Shown here: piece by piece, positions 4,925 through 43,926 of the stretch
Position numbering within the stretch: the stretch's first letter is position 1
Layout of the letters: each line of letters starts with the position of its first letter
Source of the DNA: Portulaca oleracea
Lineage: Eukaryota > Streptophyta > Magnoliopsida > Caryophyllales > Portulacaceae
Direction of reading: 5' to 3'
Assembly: GCA_029582165.1 (NCBI GenBank)
Contig: CM055888.1
Span: 12,964,001-13,028,000, forward strand
Length of the DNA: 64,000 nucleotides
Program-made: the position numbers and the translations under genes
The notes under the pieces: generated by a model
Databases searched by the model: none
What the model was told of the DNA's origin: nothing
Seen by the model: the letters and a program-made list of their open reading frames with translations, nothing else

Positions 4925-6513
4925 TGTAAGTTATAAGGTCGAGAATCAGAGTCACAAAAACTAGAATTTTCTGGGTAATTTGTATAAGTACATTAAGGAG
5001 TTAAATGTGATTATTAAGGTCTTGTAAGTGGGTTTAAGAGTGGCCAAGCTAAGGAATATATTATTATTTGTGATATGGTTTTGGTAAGAACCTTAGAGCT
5101 CAAAGTTGAAAGACCCCGAGACCTTGAAACTATTTTACCGTTTTAATTTACCGAATTTCGTAACTCTATTTAGAAGCTTTTATTGTTCTTGGGAGTTTTA
5201 AAGCCTCTTTGGTAACTTGAAAGTTTATATTTTACAAGTATTCCTTGATTCATAAAGCCCTCATAAACTGAAGCATTTATCGAAGCCTCTTGATTTTATC
5301 TCAAACGGCCGAAAAACCCCGTTATTACTATTGTCGGTAATTTGCTGCTACTGTCCGGGGCTCTTTTTGAGCCTTTTTCATTCTTTTTAACCTCTGCCCC
5401 GACCATCAAACTTGTAGAACGTATTTTTCCCTTTCCGAAAAGTACTCGCACAGCGAAATCCGAGTTCTATAGCCCGAGTTACGATCAAAATACTATTGTC
5501 TTTAAAACCTGAAATTCCTATACGTTTTATTGCCGAAACTTTATTGCGAGGTTCTACGCCCTTACCTTTTCATAGCTCCTATTTTAATACCGAACTCTAT
5601 TATTATAGCTCAAAGTCCCGCTCGACCCAAGCCATTCCCACCGAGATCGCGACCGGACGGCTCACTCGCCAGTGCACGCAAATTGTCCAACAAATACTCT
5701 TACTTAACTTACGATGCTTTTATTGCATAAGTTCATTCTAATGGTTTTTAATGTTTTGTTAAGTGGCCCCGATCCTCATTTACATGAGCTAGAATTTAGT
5801 CTAGCATTCTACAGCTCCTTCCGAGTAACCTGCACTGCGATGTCGATCGCCTATGATCACCATCCAAACTTAGGATCGCCATGCGTCTGCGAGATGTTCT
5901 ACATCGATCAATCAGGGAGCCCAAATCTATTATATAGTAAAGTCTATAAAGGGTACATATCATAAGCATATACCAGTTTATCGTAAAAGATTGCATTGTC
6001 TTAGCATGATTTTGAACCCTTCCCGCTTTCAAACGCTTTTAAAGGTCGGCATGAAAACCGTTTTGAAACGGTTTTATGTTGAGGTTTGTGTCTCGAGTGT
6101 TTCCACTCATCTTTGCGTTGTTTTCACTGCTTTGTTTTAGGCAGTCCGAGATCACGAGATAAAGGCAAGGGACTTCACTCAGCGTCCAGTTCAGCAAAGT
6201 GAAAGGTAGAAATATGCTTAAGTACAGGAGTTATGATAATCCTAGGAGTAATGTCATTAGTAATGTGGGATTTGTATGTGGATTATATGCTCGACGTGTA
6301 ACCTTGGTTTTTGGGATGTCATGATGTATGGGAGTTCTCTGGTTATGTGATATTAAATGTTTTATTGGGTTACTTTGTGTATAGTTAAGGGATGGATGAC
6401 GTAGGTTGCCTTGTCCTTTAGGGGACGCGTAACGCCCGACGTTATCATTCGCTAATCAGGTGATTACTATTGTATTTGGGGTAATGACGTGATTAAGGTT
6501 TGGGGGCGTTACA
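4925..6513 (+). mobile_element. Probable solo LTR (about 1.6 kb)
   Basis: The segment runs from TGTAAG to GGGGGCGTTACA, the same type of end as the neighbouring long LTR. It is embedded in a TAA-rich tract, and its flanks (ataaa left, ataat right) could be a 5-bp target duplication with one mismatch. No PBS, polypurine tract or coding region follows. Short open frames (5496-5741, 5714-5965) show no recognisable domain. The left end is the weaker one. Confidence 0.55.
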
Positions 6514-6615
6514 ATAATATTATTAATTAATATGTAATAATAACTAATTAATAATTGATAATTATTAATTATTAAAATTTTATTATTGTCATAATAATAA
6601 TAGTAATAATAATAA
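6514..6615. repeat. TAA/ATT-rich microsatellite, right part
   Basis: Continuation of the TAA/ATT tract after the solo LTR. It ends in the 9-bp taataataa that borders the MULE element. Confidence 0.8.
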
Positions 6616-7600
6616 GGGTTTTTTGCCTCAAATAATACGTACTGAGGGGCTTGTGACCGAGAATAATCTAAAGTGACTTTTAGACCACTGACAGTTTGTA
6701 CTTTTTCAATATTTTCTCCTAGTAGTCCAGATTAGTTTCCGGCGCCGGAAATCTGACGTGGCCACCGTAGCACGTGGTCCTTTAATGAAAAGCATGTCAA
6801 GTCAGATTTTAGTATTTGTTTCTGATTTTTTAAAAGCCAGTGAAGGTTTTTTTAATTCCATGTCATAACCGTTGTTTTGTTTAGGCTGACGTGCAGTGGT
6901 CGGCGACGCAACACGGGCAACAGATGGAAGGCGCAACGACGAGGGGTAGAGGTGTGAGGAGGTGGCAGATGTCGGTTTAGGGCAACGTCGCCGACCGTGG
7001 TCCATGTGAGGGAGAGACAGTGAGGGCGGTTATGGCAAACAACAACAATGGATCTGGACTGAGCCTACGGTGGTGGGCGGCGGCGCACAAGGCTGGGACG
7101 TCGATGCAATCAGCACTGTGGCTGCGGTGCGAAAGGCGTGCGAATGGTCGCGGTGGCTAGCCGTCGAGAATTGCGCTGGAGTGGGGCGGTGGAGGCTGCG
7201 ATGCGGCGGCTATGGTGGTGAGAGTGAGGGAGTTTTCTGGGCGGATGGAGGGCTGAGCGATGACGTCGTTGGGCGGTGGTGTGGGATGTAGGTTAGGGTT
7301 GAGGGAAGAGTAAGAGAAATGAGACAAGGAGGTAATTGGTGTTGAAATTTTTTTTAATTAAAAAAACCTTCACTGACTTTTTAAAAAAATCAGAAACAAA
7401 TACTAAAATCTGACTCGGCATGCTTTTCATTAAAAGACCACGTGCTCCGGTGGTCATGTCAGATTTCCGGCGTCGGAAAGCTAATCTGGACTACTAGGAG
7501 AAAATATTGAAAAAGTACAGACTGTCAGTGGTTTAAAAGTCACTTTGGATTATTCTCGATCACAAGCCCCTAAGTACGTATTATTTGAGGCCAAAAACCC
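6616..7600. mobile_element. MULE-type element with long TIRs, non-autonomous
   Basis: About 245 bp at the left end (from GGGTTTTTTGCCTC) is an inverted copy of the right end (to GGCCAAAAACCC at 7600). The flanks show a 9-bp taataataa on both sides (6607-6615, 7601-7609), the size typical of Mutator-like elements, although the site lies in a TAA repeat. The interior, 6880-7300, is GC-rich and unlike the TIRs. It has short open frames on both strands but no transposase motif. The same TIR family builds the small element at 14242-14584. A captured host fragment (Pack-MULE) is possible but unproven. Confidence 0.75.
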
Positions 7601-34622: not shown

Positions 34623-35196
34623 TGTTAGGATCGAAGAGCACTCAAGCAAACCACAAACAATAAGAAATAATAGCGGAAAAGAAATAAGAAATTTGACACC
34701 AGGAATTTTAACGTGGAAAAAAACCCAAAGTGGGAAAAAAAACCACGGAATCGATGCACTAGTAATTTGAGGATTACAATACAAAGGTTGTGTTTCTCTC
34801 TCTCTCACTTGATCCCAATTCTCTCTGGGATATACTCTGGGATATCTAGGGATAGATCATAAGGAGAACTTGACCCCAATATATACTGGGGAGTACAGAA
34901 GGGAAACCCTAGGTTGCAACCTAGAAAATAACCGCCACAAGAAAAACACACACGTGGGCTTTTATTTTCGGCCCAACAGAGCAACGTCCAGCATGCACCA
35001 GGCGCTAGTAGCGCACCAATAAGCACTGGCAGCGCGAAGCTTCTCAAACTCTCTAACCAAGGCGCTGGTAGCGCCAGCTTGACAACGCGTGAGACAAGGG
35101 CGCTGGTGAGGCGCTGGGAGCGCCGCTTCAGGCACTGGTAGCGCCAGCTTCTTCGCCTCGTACCTTCTTCCCCTTATTTGGTCTCCACACCCAACA
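34623..35196 (-). mobile_element. LTR of a copia element (copy B), inserted in the older copia
   Basis: Runs from TGTTAGGATCGAAG (34623) to CACACCCAACA (35196) on the plus strand. The polypurine tract CCAAGTGGGAGAT adjoins it at 35197 on the minus strand, so this is the 3' LTR of a minus-strand element. Its U3 carries the palindrome array at 35001-35145 and a TATA box (TATATATT) at 34885-34878. Its ends and first bases resemble copy A at 40593-43926. Confidence 0.8.
35001..35145 (-). repeat. Array of short GC-rich palindromes (stem GGCGCT) in LTR U3
   Basis: Units of GGCGCT-NNN-AGCGCC type lie at 35001-35015, 35023-35035, 35061-35075, 35110-35124 and 35131-35145, with a half unit at 35099. 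Centres of the first two and of the last two are exactly 21 nt apart. Two units with GCACT/GGCACT instead of GCGCT/GGCGCT keep G-U pairing only when read on the minus strand, the sense strand of the element. Confidence 0.85.
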
Positions 35197-35930
35197 ATCT
35201 CCCACTTGGAGACCAAACCTCTAACATCCTCCATTTTCAGCACAAGTTCCCCTAGTGCATCGACCGACCCCTTCATCAGTCTGAGAGGCCTCCTGAGACC
35301 GCACCGGGCCTCAATTTCCCAACATCCACTGGCTTACCCTTGATCCTGTAGACCCACTTCTTCACGGCCTTCTTCCCTGCAGACAATCTCACCGGCTTCC
35401 AAGTTCTCTCAAGTGACACAATCTCATCAACCATTGCGTGCTCCCACTTGAACCGAGCCTCCGCCTGCACAGCCTTAGTATGTGACTCTGGCTCACCAAC
35501 ATCTCTGATAGCCCTCCTGGATCTCCTCACAGTAGATGGTGCGCTAGAGCTTTAACCTAGTTCCTGTGGTTCAGGTTCTTCAATAACCTGATCTGCAACA
35601 TGTGGAGCTTCCTGTGGTTCCTCTGTTTTCTCTCTAGGCACACCAAGCCTAACAGAAACCTCGACCGCCTAAACTCCCATTGGTTTCTTGTCACTTGATT
35701 CACTCCATACCTCCTCAAGTTTCCCGTCAGTTTTGGCGAAACTGACCCTCTTCTCATTCCTGCAATGCCATAAGCTAGAACAAGAAGCATTAGAAATTAT
35801 GTTAGTGCTATCCCTGGTGGAGTACAACGTACCGGACTTCAATCCATTCGCCACTACCATAGCACCCTTCACGATCTTCCACATCCCATTCTCGAAGCCT
35901 GTAGTGTAGCCAATCTCATGATAACACTTA
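35197..35930 (-). pseudogene. Copia element B internal fragment lacking integrase
   Basis: Read on the minus strand it starts within the region after the protease (EIGYTTGFENGMWKIVKGAM then VVANGLKSGTLYSTRD), runs through KRVSFAKTDGKLEEVW and ends in the first part of the polymerase (RFKWEHAMVDEIVSLERTW, KKWVYRIKGKP). Integrase and the polymerase core are absent. The order agrees with copy A (41195-42340), which has the same gap. Several frame changes are present. No 5' LTR is seen on the right side. Confidence 0.75.
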
Positions 35931-36425
35931 CTCCTTCTTGATGGGGAAACGATGGATTGTGATCACAACCCTCTTTCCTACCCGACTCCACAAAAATCAA
36001 ACCAGGATTGGAAGTGAGAATAAAGGCCTCCTCTACATGAGTGAAACACGGGATGAGAGTGCTTTGAGCGAAAGGAAGCATGTTTGGCTTTACTTTTGCA
36101 AAAAGGTAATCCGAGTAAGGTTGTGGAGCGTACCAGGCTGGGGCCCGAGCCTCGAGATTCATGGTTTCCAAGTCTGTCCTCACCCCCTCCAAAGAACACG
36201 AAGAAATCAACTCCAAGGTCGGGTGTGGAGTGCATTTCAAGGTGGACCCGGGACCCTAGAGGCATGGTTTGATCGGCATTGGGTGTGGTATCCACTTCAA
36301 ATGGACCCTGGACCATGGGAGTAGAGCTACGGGTCCTCACTGGGACTTACTTCGGGCCTTTAAAAGGGTTCGAAGTCCTTCGGCAAGAATAAGCGCAAAC
36401 GGGTCAACGTGGGATGTTGGAATGG
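35931..36425. other. Unassigned segment, possible retroelement tail
   Basis: Both strands have open frames over 100 residues (35938-36324 plus; 35869-36240 and 35978-36340 minus), which suggests moderate GC content rather than a gene. I recognise no domain. Confidence 0.3.
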
Positions 36426-36948
36426 ATGTGCCTTCACTCTTTGGGTCATAACTCCTTTGCTATAACTCCGATTGATCTCAAATTTAGGGAGCTTAAAGTA
36501 CACACCGAGAGCTTTCCATCGATATCTTATGGGCTTAAAACGGAGTTCGGATGAAGAAGTTATGCGTGTTTGAAGTCGGCAGAGAAAAGTTGTCCAGAGG
36601 AATGTCGCGCCCGCGACGCCTAGGGTCGCGCCCGCGACACCCTGCTGCCCAGGGATGTCGTGCCCGCGACTCCTAGGGTCGCGCCCGCGACCTCTTTCTG
36701 CCCAGACCTGCTCCTGCTACTGCGTGTTGTCCCCCCCCCCCCACCCCCATTCCTATATATACCCCCTCCCTTGGCATTGTTTAGTAGCTTTTGGACATTG
36801 TATATTTGATGCTTTAGCATTGTGGGTTTTTCCCAACTTTCTCAAAAATCTTGTTAACTTTATCCAAGTGATTTGGTGGTGTTTCAAGTCATTCCTTTAG
36901 TGATTATTGGTGGATTATCCTTTAGTTTCAAGTCATTTCTTTAGTGAC
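36426..36948 (+). promoter_or_regulatory. LTR/promoter-like module with conserved block, palindrome array and TATA box
   Basis: In order: a block of about 150 bp (36426-36575, from GTGCCTTCACTCTTTGGG) that recurs in inverted orientation at 38510-38665, the palindrome array (36604-36691), a poly-C run, a TATA box TATATATA at 36754-36761 and a transcribed-looking leader. A Cassandra-like LTR cuts it at 36949. This order suggests U3 plus start of R of an uncharacterised LTR element read on the plus strand. Confidence 0.5.
36604..36691 (+). repeat. Array of four short palindromes (stem GTCGCG, loop CC)
   Basis: GTCGCG-CC-CGCGAC occurs at 36604-36617, 36625-36638 and 36678-36691. A fourth unit at 36657-36670 reads GTCGTG-CC-CGCGAC, which keeps a U-G pair in plus-strand RNA. 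The pairs 36604/36625 and 36657/36678 are each spaced exactly 21 nt, joined by linkers ending in CCTAGG. Confidence 0.95.
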
Positions 36949-37241
36949 TGTAACACCCCGGATATGTGGTTAAAGTGTGGCTTAAAAGAATTGAAATGAC
37001 TACTCATATCACCAAGGTGCACCTTCTTTTATGGTAGCTCATCCGTTGGGAACTCCCCAGTTAAGCGTGCTTGGCTGGGAATAGTCTCAGGATGGGTGAC
37101 CTCTTGGGAAGTTTTCCCAAGCAGCGTGTGAGCGAGGACGAAGCACGCTGGAAAGACTCGTGGTGATTTGTAGGGCCAGTCAGCAATCCTTGAAGCAGTT
37201 ATCAGTAATGTCCGCGGCCTAGGAGGGGTCAGGGCGTTACA
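36949..37241 (+). mobile_element. Cassandra-like solo LTR with a 5S rRNA-like domain
   Basis: The LTR begins TGTAACACCCCGG and ends AGGGCGTTACA (293 bp). Inside, 37051-37112 resembles the 5S rRNA gene promoter region: CCCAGTTAAGCGTGCTTGG (A-box part) and AGGATGGGTGACCTC (C-box part). Cassandra elements carry such a polymerase III-type region in their LTRs. No PBS or second LTR follows and the flanks (gtgac, ctcta) do not match, so it is a solo LTR with a lost or altered target duplication. Confidence 0.82.
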
Positions 37242-38286
37242 CTCTATCTCAAAACCCTAAAAATTAATGGTAGTTTTATGAGTTATAATTTGAGTTTTCT
37301 CAAACCCTAAAATAATTGTGATCATTAGGTGATTAATCTTGCTTCCCTAGTCATTTTCGGATCAAAATCAAATAAAGATCCCTTAGGACCATATGTTAGG
37401 GCTTTATATAATTGCCTAGAAACCACCCAAATGTGCATTTGTGTATTGCATGACGGCAAAGGAGCTCCCTACCTGCATGTCATCTAGGCAAGGATAGAGG
37501 TGGCTCAAGCTAAATTCATCAGCTCAGACCTCCTCAATCCTCACCGTAATGAAAGACAAGTGATCGTTGTTCGGTTGTAATTTTTGTGGTTTTATAAGTA
37601 AGGATTGTCGATCTCAGGGATGGGTGTGAGGCTTGATTAAGGTAATCGGTTTGTGTAAGGGGTTTTCTCATTGCGGAAAGTTATAAATTATGTAAATTAA
37701 GCAATAAACTAACTTAGACATGATAATAATCAAGGAAGCAATTAAAGATGAAGCAATTAAGAACAAGAAATAAGAAAGCAATAAAAAAGCAATGTATTAG
37801 AAAGCAATAAAACTAATAATGAAATTAGGCACAAGAGATTATACCTTTGATGATCTAAACTTCAAATCTTCAATTTACCTTTGCAATTTCCCCAGAACAA
37901 ACAAGAAATTGTGGATTGGATTACCAAGGATCCCCCCAAATTCTCACTAGGAAGTAGAATTGGAATTCCTTGACCCTCCTCCCCACTAACAGATGGATTT
38001 GATTTGGCTAACCCTAGAAAGCTTTTGAAATCAACATCAATGGAGAATAGAGAGAGAGAGAGAGAGGAAGAGAGAGAGAAAGCTTGTAAAACTTCAATGA
38101 GATTACTTGAAAGAAGAGTTTAATAACAATTGCAAGAAGACTTAAAGAAAGCTTGAAGAACAATGAAGAAAACTTGAAGAACAATTAAAGAAAGCAATTA
38201 AATCTAATCTAATCCTACTCCTAAAACTTAAATAAAAGCTAAGCTAAAAGATAAAAACTAAGATAATTAGTTCTGAATACATTTGG
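37242..38286. other. Non-coding retroelement-like DNA
   Basis: On the minus strand this lies downstream of the TATA box at 38287-38294 and includes a CT-rich leader-like tract (GAGAGAGAG at about 38048-38085 on the plus strand). No gene is supported. It probably belongs to the same non-coding element as the module at 38287-38665. Confidence 0.35.
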
Positions 38287-38665
38287 TATTTATAGAAGAA
38301 GGAGAACGAAACCCAAAACCCTAAAACTAACTCAGCAAAACGCGCATCAGCTTCGCAGAATTTCGGGTGACTCGGGCGAGTCAATAAGTGACTCGAGCGA
38401 GTCAGTGTTCTGTCCCGCTCCCTTGGCCTATGTCTTTGTTGCCCCAAAAGCCTGACTCGGGCGAGTCAGCAGATGACTCGGGCGAGTCACTGTTCTCGGC
38501 AGCTTTTCCCTGCCGACTTCAAACGCGCATAATTTCTTCATCCGAACTCCGTTTCAGACCCGTAAGATATCGATGGAAAGCTCTCGGTGTATACTTTAAG
38601 CTCCCAAAATGTCAGACCAATCGGAGTTGTAACGAAGGAGTTATGACCCAAAGAGTGAAGGCACA
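38287..38665 (-). promoter_or_regulatory. Second LTR/promoter-like module, inverted relative to 36.4 kb
   Basis: Read on the minus strand: conserved block 38665-38510 (GTGCCTTCACTCTTTGGG, CCGAGAGCTTTCCATCGATA, GAAGTCGGCAG), then the palindrome array (38489-38368), then a TATA box TATAAATA at 38294-38287. The order is the same as at 36426-36761, and by eye the conserved block is roughly 85% identical. Confidence 0.5.
38368..38489 (-). repeat. Array of four short palindromes (stem TGACTCG, loop GG)
   Basis: TGACTCG-GG-CGAGTCA lies at 38368-38383, 38453-38468 and 38474-38489. At 38389-38404 the loop is AG, with the stem unchanged. Centres within each pair (38368/38389 and 38453/38474) are exactly 21 nt apart. 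The stem is unrelated to that of the 36.6-kb array. Confidence 0.95.
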
Positions 38666-39980
38666 CATATTTCAAACCTTTGAGTCTGTACTGTTCCCCT
38701 ATTTTGCGCCAATCTTGACATGGAATTTTCGGCTTCGGTTTCGCCTCGGCTCTTGGCTCGGGTTGACTTAGTTCTCGGCTCGGGTTGACTTGGTTTGACT
38801 CGGGAAATCGCTCGGGATTCCTTAAAAACCTTCAATTAAGCCCAAACTTCTTCTAACTCCTTATTTTCCTACAAAACACCAAATCACTATATCTAATATA
38901 TACAAAAGGACTAAAATAAACACAAACACCCTATAAAGGAGATAAAATTCAGCTCGGAACGAGACCGAACAGTCGTTTTCTAAAAAACCCAACCTAAATT
39001 CCCTTAACAAACCCCAACTATGCGTTTGTGAGAAAGAAGGGTTCCAAGGTTGCAGTCTAGCACACGAGATTACACCCCAACTAGATTGCGCTCCTAAAAC
39101 CCATTATATCGGAGTAAAATTCACAAATGCAAGCTAACTTCCGCACAACTAATGCTTAACCTAAATTCAACAAAAAATAATTACATTTATGTCAGAAAAG
39201 AATGATGGTGCTTGGAGCTAAATTCATATGACCCAATCACTGCCACTCTCTATAGAACGAAATAAAAGGTTTTTGGTTGAATTAGTACATCTAAATCCAA
39301 CTAATATACTTACACCTTGTTTTTGAAAACTCAACCAAAATGTAAGGTCGAAACAAGAACAAGAACAAGAACAACAAACCTCATTATAGTCCCGTTAATG
39401 CAATGTTTGAAGGGATTCAAATGTAAGGCATTTTTTCCTTCATGCATGAAAGTGCATGAAGAGGTTGATACTGATGGACCCAAAACAATATTTTAAAAAA
39501 TCAAAAAATAACCTCTTTGAAAACTGGAGGGTAAACTTCTTGGGAATTGGTAGAAGAGAATAAACATGGACAAAGAAACTCCATATATGTATGTTGTAGA
39601 CACCAAATTCTATCCCAATTTTTGCATAATTATTTTGTAACATTTTTTTATTTTTTAGATTAAATTAGAACTCGATTCAATCAATCATGTGATAACACAC
39701 ATCCTCATACCACCAAAAAAATACCTCACTTCCCCAAATTTCTAAGCCTCTCAAAAAAGGTCTCCCATTTCTCATTATTTCAACTTCAAAAACCTTCATT
39801 TTTCACCCTTCCCACATTTATTTATAGGTTTACTATTTTGAATGTCATTTTTTCCACATACCTACGGTCGCTAAATCCTTTTCACAAGCTTAAGGTAAAC
39901 TCTATAAGCTTCAATTCCCAAGATTGGTTGAATCAGGTCAATCAAATATTAGACATAGAAGATATGGTCATTTTAGCGTA
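38666..39980. other. Intergenic or retroelement-derived DNA
   Basis: A GGCTCGGGTTGACTT repeat lies at 38755-38785. The remainder is AT-rich and has no supportable gene; frames such as 39838-40044 lack domains. Confidence 0.35.
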
Positions 39981-40260: not shown

Positions 40261-41194
40261 TAGAGGACACATGCTTATTTGGTGACTATGACACTATGTG
40301 AGAGATCAATTATTAAAAAATTGGTCAAATTTTTCCCGGCATGCCTGGTTAACAAACAATTGAATCATTCTCACATAACTCTATGGCAGTCCAAAAAAAT
40401 CCAATGGATTGATAGATGAGATTGTTGATGCATATTTTTAAAGTAGGGATTATTATTATCCAATAGTCTGTGATAGGAATGATTGGAATCCAATTTTCTA
40501 AAACATATGAAGTTTTTTTTTAAAAAAAACTTACAAGTTAACATAACTCAACAACAATTCTCTAGTTAAACAATTATATTGGATTCTAATTCTGTTAGGA
40601 TTCTCAGGGCGTAGTTAGCAGAAAAACAATAATAAGGGCGAAAAATAAATAAAGATTCGACACAAGGAATTAACGTGGAAAAACCCAAACCGGGAAAAAA
40701 CCACGAACGATGCACTATCAGAGGATTACAACAGTGTTTCAGAGATTCCTAGACCTCCACAATCTCTCACAACCTCCCTAGAGTTACAACCTGAGAACTC
40801 AACACTCACAGATGAGCCTCACACAACTCCCTCAGGAACACAGAGATTACAGGTCAATCTCTTGTGGTATAAGATGAAACACTCTCAATTGCTATATAAA
40901 TAAACCTAGCACCTAGGCTCTATTTATAGTACAAGGCTGACACAATTTAGGATTAATAGAGTCCCTACAGCAAAGGAATTACAAAAAAGAAGTGGAACAA
41001 ATCAACAATCTGATTCCCATTCAAACTCTTCTACCTTGCTCCCCAAGAGATAGAGACCAACCCAAAATTGGTCTCCACATTCAACCCAACAATCTCCCAC
41101 TTGGAGACCAATTGTAAACGCACTCTGGCCGATTATCATTAATCACCACTTCAACACCTCCTTGAATCCTTTAGTGCATCCATCTCGATCTTGT

Positions 41195-42340
41195 TCAGCA
41201 AAGATCAACAGAGGTCCCAGTTGACCTCCTATCAACTCCTCTTTTAGCAACAGGCTCCCACTTGAACTGATCACGCCCCTGCAATTTCGACATACGCATC
41301 ATCGTCAACAACTTAGGGGAATTTTGGATTGGGATTTTACCTCGTGTTGAACTTGTCGAATTCTCATGCAGGTTAGATGCGTTCCTCGGCTGATCATCCA
41401 TTCCCGTAGCCTCGACCTGAAACCTCCTCGTTTTTGGTTCCCTTCTCTCATCAGAGAAGCTAACACGCCTTTGACGAGCATGAACCGGCATGTTAGAGTT
41501 ATCAATGACAGAATATAGCTTCCCCTCTTTCCTGCCATTTGCAATTATCAGAGATCCTTTCGTTACCCTCCAATGACCATCTTCAAATCTCGTCGTGAAC
41601 CCCTCCTCATCCAATTGACTCTCAGATACAAGGTTCTTGGTCAGACCCGGGACATACCGAACATTGTTCAACCTCCAAGTTCCACCCTTAGAAGTTTTAA
41701 TGTTTACATCACCTCTTCCTAGCACCTTTAGGTTGTGACCGTTTGCAAGCCTAACCCTGCCAAACCTCCCACTCACAAAATTGTTAAAGGCCTCCTTGCT
41801 AGACGAAGAGTGAAACGAAGCACCCGAATCTATCACCCAACCCCCTTCTAACTTGTCAACACAAACAGTTAGGGCATCACCAAAATCCTCAACAGAATAT
41901 ACAAAGTCCTGGTCATTATGGCTGCTCTTCTTAGGTTTGGGACAATCCCTACGAAAATGACCTCTATCACCACAGTTCCAACACAACACTTGCTCCATGT
42001 TTCGACCTCTAGATTTTGATCGACCCCGACCCGAACTCCCACTATTCCTCCTACCTGACACAAAGCATCCCAAGACTCGCACATCGGAATCTTTCCTGCG
42101 AATACTTTCATTCAGGACCAAGTCTCTAATTTCCCCAAACTTCAGTTTCTCATCCTTCTTAGTTGAAGAAGTTACAGAAGTCACGAAATTTTCCCATTAC
42201 TTAGGTAGGGTAGCCAATAGTATATTAGCATTCATCTCATCGTCGAACTTAAATCCCACAGAGGTTAATAGGTCTTCTCAAGAGCAAGGGACGACAAGTC
42301 TTAGCCGAGTGAGGTGCTCTAGTGTTCCCTTCGTTGTTGG
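41195..42340 (-). pseudogene. Copia A gag (3' part), zinc knuckle, protease and fused RT start
   Basis: Minus-strand reading: gag end (VGFKFDDEMNANILLATLPK, then KKDEKLKFGEIRDLVLNE), zinc knuckle CWNCGDRGHFRRDCPKPKK, and aspartic protease WVIDSGASFHSS with the active-site DSG intact. After GKLYSVIDNSN the frame runs into RRVSFSDERREPKTRRF and then DQFKWEP, the first part of a polymerase, so integrase is deleted. From the Met at 42184 the frame is 329 residues long without a stop; upstream of it stops occur. Confidence 0.85.
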
Positions 42341-43399: not shown

Positions 43400-43926
43400 T
43401 GCTTCTCAGTCTGCAGATCAACCACGCTCCAACCAAAGCTTTGATACCACTTGTTAGGATTCTCAGGGCGTAGTTAGCAGAAAAACAATAATAAGGGCGA
43501 AAAATAAATAAAGATTCGACACAAGGAATTAACGTGGAAAAACCCAAACCGGGAAAAAACCACGAACGATGCACTATCAGAGGATTACAACAGTGTTTCA
43601 GAGATTCCCAAACTCCACAATCTCTCACAAGTTCCTGGCGAGAACTCAACACTCAGATGAGCCTCACACAACTCCTCAGAACACAGAGATTACAGTCAAT
43701 CTCTTGGTATAAGATGAAACACTCTCAATTGCTATATAAATAAACCTAGCACCTAAGCTCTATTTATAGTCTGACACAATTTTAGGATTAATAGGTTCCT
43801 ACAAAGAAAGGAATTACAAAAAAGAAGTGGAACAAATCAACAATCTAATTCCCACTCAAACTCTTCTACCTTGCTCCCCAAGAGATAGAGACCAACCCAA
43901 AATTGGTCTCCACATTCAACCCAACA

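Follow-up and report, generated by a model that had tools for sequence, protein, structure and literature searches.

In a 64,000-bp stretch of the Portulaca oleracea genome (contig CM055888.1, positions 12,964,001 to 13,028,000; hereafter called the window), three arrays of short paired palindromes lie in the long terminal repeats (LTRs) of retrotransposons, each of them between the start of the LTR and its TATA box. Within the pairs the palindrome centres are 21 bp apart, and in a larger set of arrays from this genome most longer distances fall near multiples of the helical repeat. We propose, with a probability of roughly 0.6, that such arrays are upstream promoter elements of the U3 (unique 3') region of these LTRs, to which protein dimers would bind in pairs on the same DNA face.

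Geometry of the three arrays

An earlier note on this DNA had described six pairs of palindromes with centres 21 bp apart, and all six were found in the sequence. We confirm the observation as real and far from chance. Three pairs are perfect, with stems of at least 6 bp (centres 36610.5/36631.5, 38375.5/38396.5 and 38460.5/38481.5), and the other three (35008/35029, 35117/35138 and 36663.5/36684.5) each include a member with a single mismatch between its 5-base arms. A strict scan of the window (stem of at least 6, loop of 0–4, at least 3 G/C per arm, pairs up to 60 bp apart) returned 6 pairs, 3 of them at 21 bp. Two hundred dinucleotide-preserving shuffles of the window gave a mean of 0.385 pairs within 60 bp, and a pair at 21 occurred in none of the 200. 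Together with the shuffles of the random regions described below, this rules out a chance origin of the pitch.

The arrangement of the pairs differs from array to array (Table 1). Array 1 contains, besides its two pairs, a perfect, unpaired unit at 35068. In array 2 the pitch is 21 within each pair and 32 between the pairs, as part of a 53-bp tandem duplication, and in array 3 it is 21 within each pair and 64 between them. The view that the arrays share an architecture and not a sequence holds for array 1 compared with the other two; it does not hold for arrays 2 and 3, the upstream flanks of which (36427-36613 and 38479-38665, in inverted orientation) are 88% identical over 187 bp.

Conservation of the pitch in the genome

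Pattern searches covered the 1.13-Gb Portulaca oleracea genome that holds the window. Individual loci of this genome that were examined as fetched segments carry labels of the form L0xx. A search for two copies of GTCGCGCCCGCGAC with 1–30 bases between them gave 334 close pairs (173 + 161 matches), and the reversed pattern, taken as a control, gave 0 matches genome-wide. Among the 100 of these 334 matches that were listed, the pitch is 21 in 74, 22 in 12 and 20 in 4; longer pitches are 31 (2 matches), 32 (3), 42 (4) and 43 (1), and no other value within 15–44 occurs among the 100. Where arrays are triple, listed places can overlap; in part of the 42–43 cases the middle unit has decayed.

Among the 7-base spacers of the 74 listed pairs with a pitch of 21 there are 54 distinct sequences. 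The information content of this set of 54 is 0.01–0.05 bits at each of the five middle positions, against 0.27 and 0.43 at the two ends; the length of the spacer is kept, its sequence is not. This diversity, and the different flanks found at the same pitch, rule out descent from a single 21-bp duplication as the only cause. We also considered a long satellite array, which is ruled out since no fetched segment has more than 9 units.

As a sample independent of the search pattern, we took the first 12 of 120 random 10-kb regions that had been drawn in advance (120 kb in all) and searched them for pairs in which both dyads are alike and nearly perfect, with block shuffles as the null. According to the earlier note, a genome-wide lack of excess at 21 would have refuted the observation; in this sample an excess is present, and it is small. 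Pairs at 20, 21 and 22 bp numbered 1, 4 and 2, and every remaining distance between 13 and 119 had 2 or fewer, with 0.013 per distance in the shuffles. One of the loci concerned, L070, has four units of the GACACGG-TC-CGTGTC type at 21, 21 and 21 with different spacers; L072 has ACCGT-N4-ACGGT units with pitches of 21 and 22, and L076 has AACACGG-NN-CCGTGTT units with a pitch of 20. No common flank of L070 and L076 was found by blast at an expect value (E) of 1e-3.

Helical phase and position relative to TATA boxes

Longer distances were analysed in a set of 25 arrays, of which five had been returned by the genome pair search and 20 were picked for diverse spacers from the 100 listed places. 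Blast comparison (E 1e-10, over 150 bp) divides them into groups of 17, 5, 2 and 1. A unit was defined as a 5-base arm, the centre NCC(C/T) and the complementary arm, with one mismatch allowed. Distances between units in these arrays peak at 21-22, 31-32, 42-44, 52-54, 63-65, 73-76, 83-86, 95-98, 104-106 and 116-119 bp, and between the peaks there are scattered single counts. The centres thus lie at multiples of the helical repeat and seldom at half turns, a pattern that is weaker outside the largest homology group.

For non-anchor units up to 130 bp from the anchor (n = 48), the Rayleigh R is 0.80 at 10.6 bp. In a conservative test, which used the gaps between neighbouring units and omitted steps of 20–22 (n = 45), the best period in a scan from 5 to 25 was 10.6, and 38 of the 45 gaps lie within 1.5 bp of a multiple of 10.6, where chance would give about 28%. 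Restricting the test to the 23 distinct gap values leaves p at ~5e-4. The second homology group taken alone (n = 22) gives R = 0.60 and p ~4e-4.

That each array lies upstream of a TATA box in the sense direction was borne out for all three arrays of the window (Table 1). In the larger set, a TATA-like word follows within 450 bp on the same strand in 22 of the 25 arrays, compared with 5 of 25 in the mirror control; LTR starts were located for part of these fetched arrays. The distance from the first anchor centre to the first TATA-like word is 91-93 bp in 6 arrays, 112-113 in 3, 164-168 in 5 and 291-297 in 3, with further values of 103, 143, 174, 180 and 271 bp. These distances keep a phase relative to the arrays (R = 0.64, n = 22, p ~1e-4), also when only the 17 distinct distances are counted (p ~0.005).

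In L055, where a TATA-like word was not found within 450 bp, the array from the anchor pair downstream lies in one open frame that runs on into a gypsy-gag-like protein (judged by eye). This locus is probably a deletion that fused U3 to gag.

Palindrome classes

Perfect arms in the 25 arrays, anchors included, are GTCGC (65), GTAGC (5), GGCTC (4) and ACCGT (2), as well as GACTC, ACCGC, TGCTC, GTTGC and GTCAC with one each, and classes can mix within a single LTR (L003, L005). On the CC strand of the anchor, with the anchor pair itself excluded, at least 4 of 5 flanking bases are complementary at 54 of 145 GCCC and at 16 of 98 ACCC centres. At the reverse centres this was seen for 0 of 51 GGGC and 0 of 100 GGGT, and for 0–7% of the other tetramers tried. 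The NCCC class therefore has a strand-fixed centre with arms that can be exchanged. Homologous LTRs show both arms changing together, as in TGACTCG-CC-CGAGTCA, TGGCTCG-CC-CGAGCCA, TGCTCG-CC-CGAGCA and GTCGCG-CC-CGCGAC. The ACCGT class of L072 has the opposite pattern, with constant arms around the centres GGTC, AGCC, GACC, GGCC and GCCC. Judged from these patterns, the strand-fixed centre would point either to a family of related factors that share a CCC contact or to a hairpin that is being read. Covariation of the arms is predicted by a dimer site in DNA as well as by an RNA stem.

A further dyad class, CGCTGGCAGCG / CGCTGCCAGCG at 21 bp, was noticed by eye upstream of the anchor pair in L051 and, more weakly, in L042, L054 and L059. 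Unlike those of the NCCC class, its members can have opposite centres (GGC, then GCC), and its core resembles the copia units of array 1. P0001, a protein relative of a spurious LTR reading frame, contains LGRA words twice 7 residues (21 nt) apart with different residues between them; we do not count it as another species.

A proposed promoter architecture based on helical spacing

In the architecture that we favour, each palindrome would be a 13–16-bp site for a protein dimer. Each pair of palindromes would place two adjacent dimers on the same DNA face at a distance of two helical turns, probably in mutual contact, and extra pairs would be added at whole helical turns. With the array in phase with the TATA box, the bound proteins would present one surface to the transcription machinery; neighbouring dimers would bind cooperatively, and the row of dimers would help to recruit that machinery. 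The different palindromes may have different readers, either related proteins of one family or proteins of several families. The earlier proposal of a dimeric protein at two helical turns is supported in part, by the kept pitch, the 10.6-bp multiples and the TATA phase, whereas the binding itself is something we infer. Spacing by two and by about three, four and five turns, together with the preferred TATA phase, leads us to prefer dimers on the same face over RNA hairpins. As the arrays are common to LTRs with different primer sites and occur in a copy with only a gag-like open reading frame (ORF; see below), the factor is more likely one of the host than of the element.

A number of observations weigh against this architecture or reduce the force of the evidence for it. 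Shared descent inflates some of the counts, and with duplications of 53 and 85 bp in the window some spacings there have been copied. Phasing loses strength when the largest homology group is left out (12 of 18 gaps still fit, p ~0.0125), and neither of the two smallest groups, which have 4 and 5 units, is phased when taken alone. Among 27 tetramers with at least 40 occurrences near the anchors, the median R at 10.6 bp is 0.34; the ten highest values (0.51–0.76) belong to tetramers that are parts of units. NCCC centres with at most 2 of 5 paired arm bases likewise give R = 0.32, compared with 0.86 for those with 4–5 paired. From these results we conclude that the baseline of the phase lies above zero and that descent explains part of its strength. 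It has to be kept in mind, too, that the signal in the random 120 kb comes from three arrays only, and that a looser scan of the first 80 random kb, for all perfect palindromes with a stem of at least 6, showed no clear excess at 21 (1 pair each at 21, 22 and 23; distances of 8 and 11 had 3 each). A rule for palindromes at large is thus unsupported, the excess being limited to like-armed pairs. Finally, a plain homodimer site does not require a strand-specific centre, and since the arms differ within one array, no one protein with sequence specificity would bind every unit.

If the proposed architecture is correct, plant retrotransposon promoters would follow a spacing rule that is visible in the sequence: dyad pairs two turns apart and phased to the TATA box, with a motif that is free to change. 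This would open a route to host factors on which large transposon families depend and to promoters in LTRs too diverged for alignment, and it would provide a natural case for testing selection on helical phasing alone.

Alternative explanations

The palindromes could instead act as DNA hairpins, extruded as cruciform arms under negative supercoiling, in which a protein reads the loop of the sense strand, the stem only pairs, and phasing puts the hairpins on one face. More generally, a host or element protein might read the shape of the palindrome, that is, a centre fixed on one strand between any pairing arms, in copies stacked on one face at whole turns, and different retrotransposon families would have converged on this shape code. 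The motif sequence could then change, for example to escape silencing, with promoter activity kept. It fits such readings that the NCC(C/T) centre is kept on one strand while the arms change among all of the types listed above, each of which occurs in perfect units, and that homologues of the LTR of array 3 (family B) change both arms together (TGACTCG..CGAGTCA versus TGGCTCG..CGAGCCA). Stems of 5–8 bp are short for extrusion in chromatin, however; the ACCGT class is reversed, its arms being constant and its centre varied, and the arms fall into few classes and do not drift freely. We regard the extruded hairpins as unlikely, and the shape code as unlikely to the same degree.

A little less probable still is a functionless by-product of mutation, in which tandem duplications of ~21, 32, 53 and 85 bp spread the units and template switching during reverse transcription keeps the palindromes perfect. 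Two such duplications, of 53 and 85 bp, are present in the window, units have been gained or lost among related LTRs (L021, L022, L033, L037), and 17 of the 25 arrays belong to one blast group. Yet the spacer length of 7 is kept across 54 sequences, the TATA phase is kept as well, and multiples of 10.6 bp are not explained by duplication alone. In addition, L070 and L076 have the same ACACGG class at 20–21 bp with no common flank at E 1e-3.

At the 3' end of the genomic RNA, paired hairpins formed by U3 might serve in packaging, dimerisation or polyadenylation. They would agree with the strand-specific centre, and stems with a single mismatch lean weakly towards wobble pairs, with 24 G-T against 15 A-C in 63 segments that include redundant copies. 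The commonest mismatch, however, is the non-pairing C-T (42), and phasing by 10.6 bp between pairs and to the TATA box has no reason in RNA. Hairpins in the transcript, which the earlier note had named as the other option, are less likely because they do not need this phasing, and we consider them very improbable. Between 34000 and 39500 there is no gathering-level Rfam match, which is weak evidence against RNA hairpins and compatible with an uncatalogued RNA element. A second, permissive scan, of 36930-37260, gave a single weak match to a known RNA family, which concerns the 5S-like portion of an inserted element and not the arrays.

Least probable of all are target sites of host silencing, where small RNAs or methylation would nucleate: the units are CpG-rich and 21 nt is also a size of plant small RNAs, but distances of 31–32 and 53 are off a 21-nt register, and the element gains nothing from such sites phased upstream of its TATA box.

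Relation to known systems

The as-1/ocs elements of cauliflower mosaic virus and of opine genes, the heat-shock elements of the ONSEN LTR and the 21-bp repeats of simian virus 40 and human T-cell leukaemia virus type 1 are promoter-proximal sites for dimeric or clustered factors, some of them helically spaced. Each of these has one fixed motif, whereas here several palindromes in several families follow one spacing rule. Another point of comparison is the VANDAL elements, which are DNA transposons.

In Arabidopsis, VANC binds tandem motifs of VANDAL elements, with an anti-silencing effect (PMC5735166). Like the arrays, these motifs are short, dense, in one orientation and situated in non-coding parts of a mobile element, and their classes turn over between related copies via the formation of tandem repeats, as those of the arrays do (PMC5735166). 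The YAGTATTAY motif differs in not being a palindrome, and neither palindromes nor spacing are mentioned in this source (PMC5735166). Tandem repeats in U3 of Tnt1 and of retroviruses are thought to act in transcription and are thus similar in location and presumed role; palindromic pairs or a two-turn pitch are not described for them in the part of the article at hand (PMC3601003). The stem-loop of Sire LTRs that contains the polypurine tract also involves inverted repeats in U3, but in that structure the partner of the U3 repeat lies upstream of the polypurine tract, whereas the palindromes reported here are self-contained (PMC3601003).

No such arrays were found in searches, limited in extent, of the literature on palindromes in LTRs or U3, promoter tandem repeats and the helical turn, and searches of full texts for the motif letters (words of 12–15 letters) found no related report. 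Within this limited reach, the result fits the statement of the earlier note that there is no named system of this kind. An earlier published description is conceivable.

LTRs carrying the arrays

The earlier note had placed one of the arrays inside a copia LTR. To judge from the ends, each of the three lies in an LTR, that of array 1 being of the copia type (Table 1). Two related LTRs (40624-40731 and 43483-43590) share the 3' part of the LTR of array 1 and flank an ORF with gag/zinc-knuckle and Pol_BBD similarity at 41195-42196. Pol_BBD is a marker of copia elements. Between array 1 and its TATA box there is also a perfect 16-bp palindrome, CTAGGTTGCAACCTAG, at 34909-34924.

Table 1. Positions of the arrays, their TATA boxes and the surrounding LTR features in the window
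Feature	Position	Strand	Remarks
Array 1	35002..35145	-	GGCGCT-NCC-AGCGCC type dyads; centres 35138/35117 (21), 35068 (single), 35029/35008 (21)
Array 2	36604..36691	+	GTCGC-NCCC-GCGAC dyads; centres 36610.5/36631.5 and 36663.5/36684.5
Array 3	38368..38489	-	TGACTCG-CC-CGAGTCA dyads (one with CT centre); centres 38375.5/38396.5 and 38460.5/38481.5
TATATA of array 1	34880..34885	-	123 bp downstream of last unit centre
TATATA of array 2	36754..36759	+	69.5 bp downstream of last unit centre
TATAAA of array 3	38289..38294	-	81.5 bp downstream of last unit centre
Copia-type LTR with array 1	34623..35196	-	starts TGTTGGGTGTGGAGACC (TGTTGGG) after polypurine tract, ends CCTAACA
Truncated LTR of family A with array 2	36124..36948	+	starts TGGAGCG; followed by 5S-like insertion
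Solo LTR of family B with array 3	37568..38971	-	TGTTCGGT...ACCGAACA; ends TGTTCGG/CCGAACA
Conserved block upstream of array 2	36427..36592	+	common to the LTR of array 3 and many places in the genome

Relatives of the other two LTRs give an indication of the primer sites. In L041, a relative of family A, the end CGCTCCA runs into TTTGGTATCAAAGC, which we read as a primer site of the tRNA-iMet type. The solo LTR of array 3 is flanked by ATCGT and GTCGT, alike at 4 of 5 bases, and its family B relatives continue past ACCGAACA into ATGGCGACGTTGCCGGGG (L044) or ATGGCGCCGTTGCCGGG (L036), presumably a primer site of the tRNA-Asp type as in Athila/Tat. Thus at least three families whose LTR ends differ carry arrays, one copia-type and two with other types of primer site.

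Between two LTRs, L044 has a gag-like ORF of 475 amino acids (5656-7083) with a zinc-knuckle-like CSLCDSPYHSSISC (identified by eye); a Pfam match above the cut-off was not found for this ORF. L044 may be a non-autonomous gypsy-type element. The LTR that comes next after the ORF (L036) is itself followed by primer-site-like sequence, so that this copy may be a tandem arrangement.

The conserved block upstream of array 2 gave 40 scored genome matches among 3234 first-look candidates. The flank pattern had no match among viral contigs or among prokaryote contigs, from which records near this genome were perhaps excluded. Since arrays 2 and 3 share this flank though their LTR ends and primer sites differ, an upstream promoter cassette seems to have been exchanged between LTR families.

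Adjoining the LTR of array 2 is an element of ~293 bp (36949-37241, plus strand; TGTAACACCCC...GGCGTTACA), which contains a 5S rRNA-like stretch at 37013-37129 (Rfam 5S, 29.3 bits, under the gathering score of 38). We take it to resemble a solo LTR of the Cassandra type. A similar stretch, of 297 bp with 84.5% identity, is present near the array in L042.

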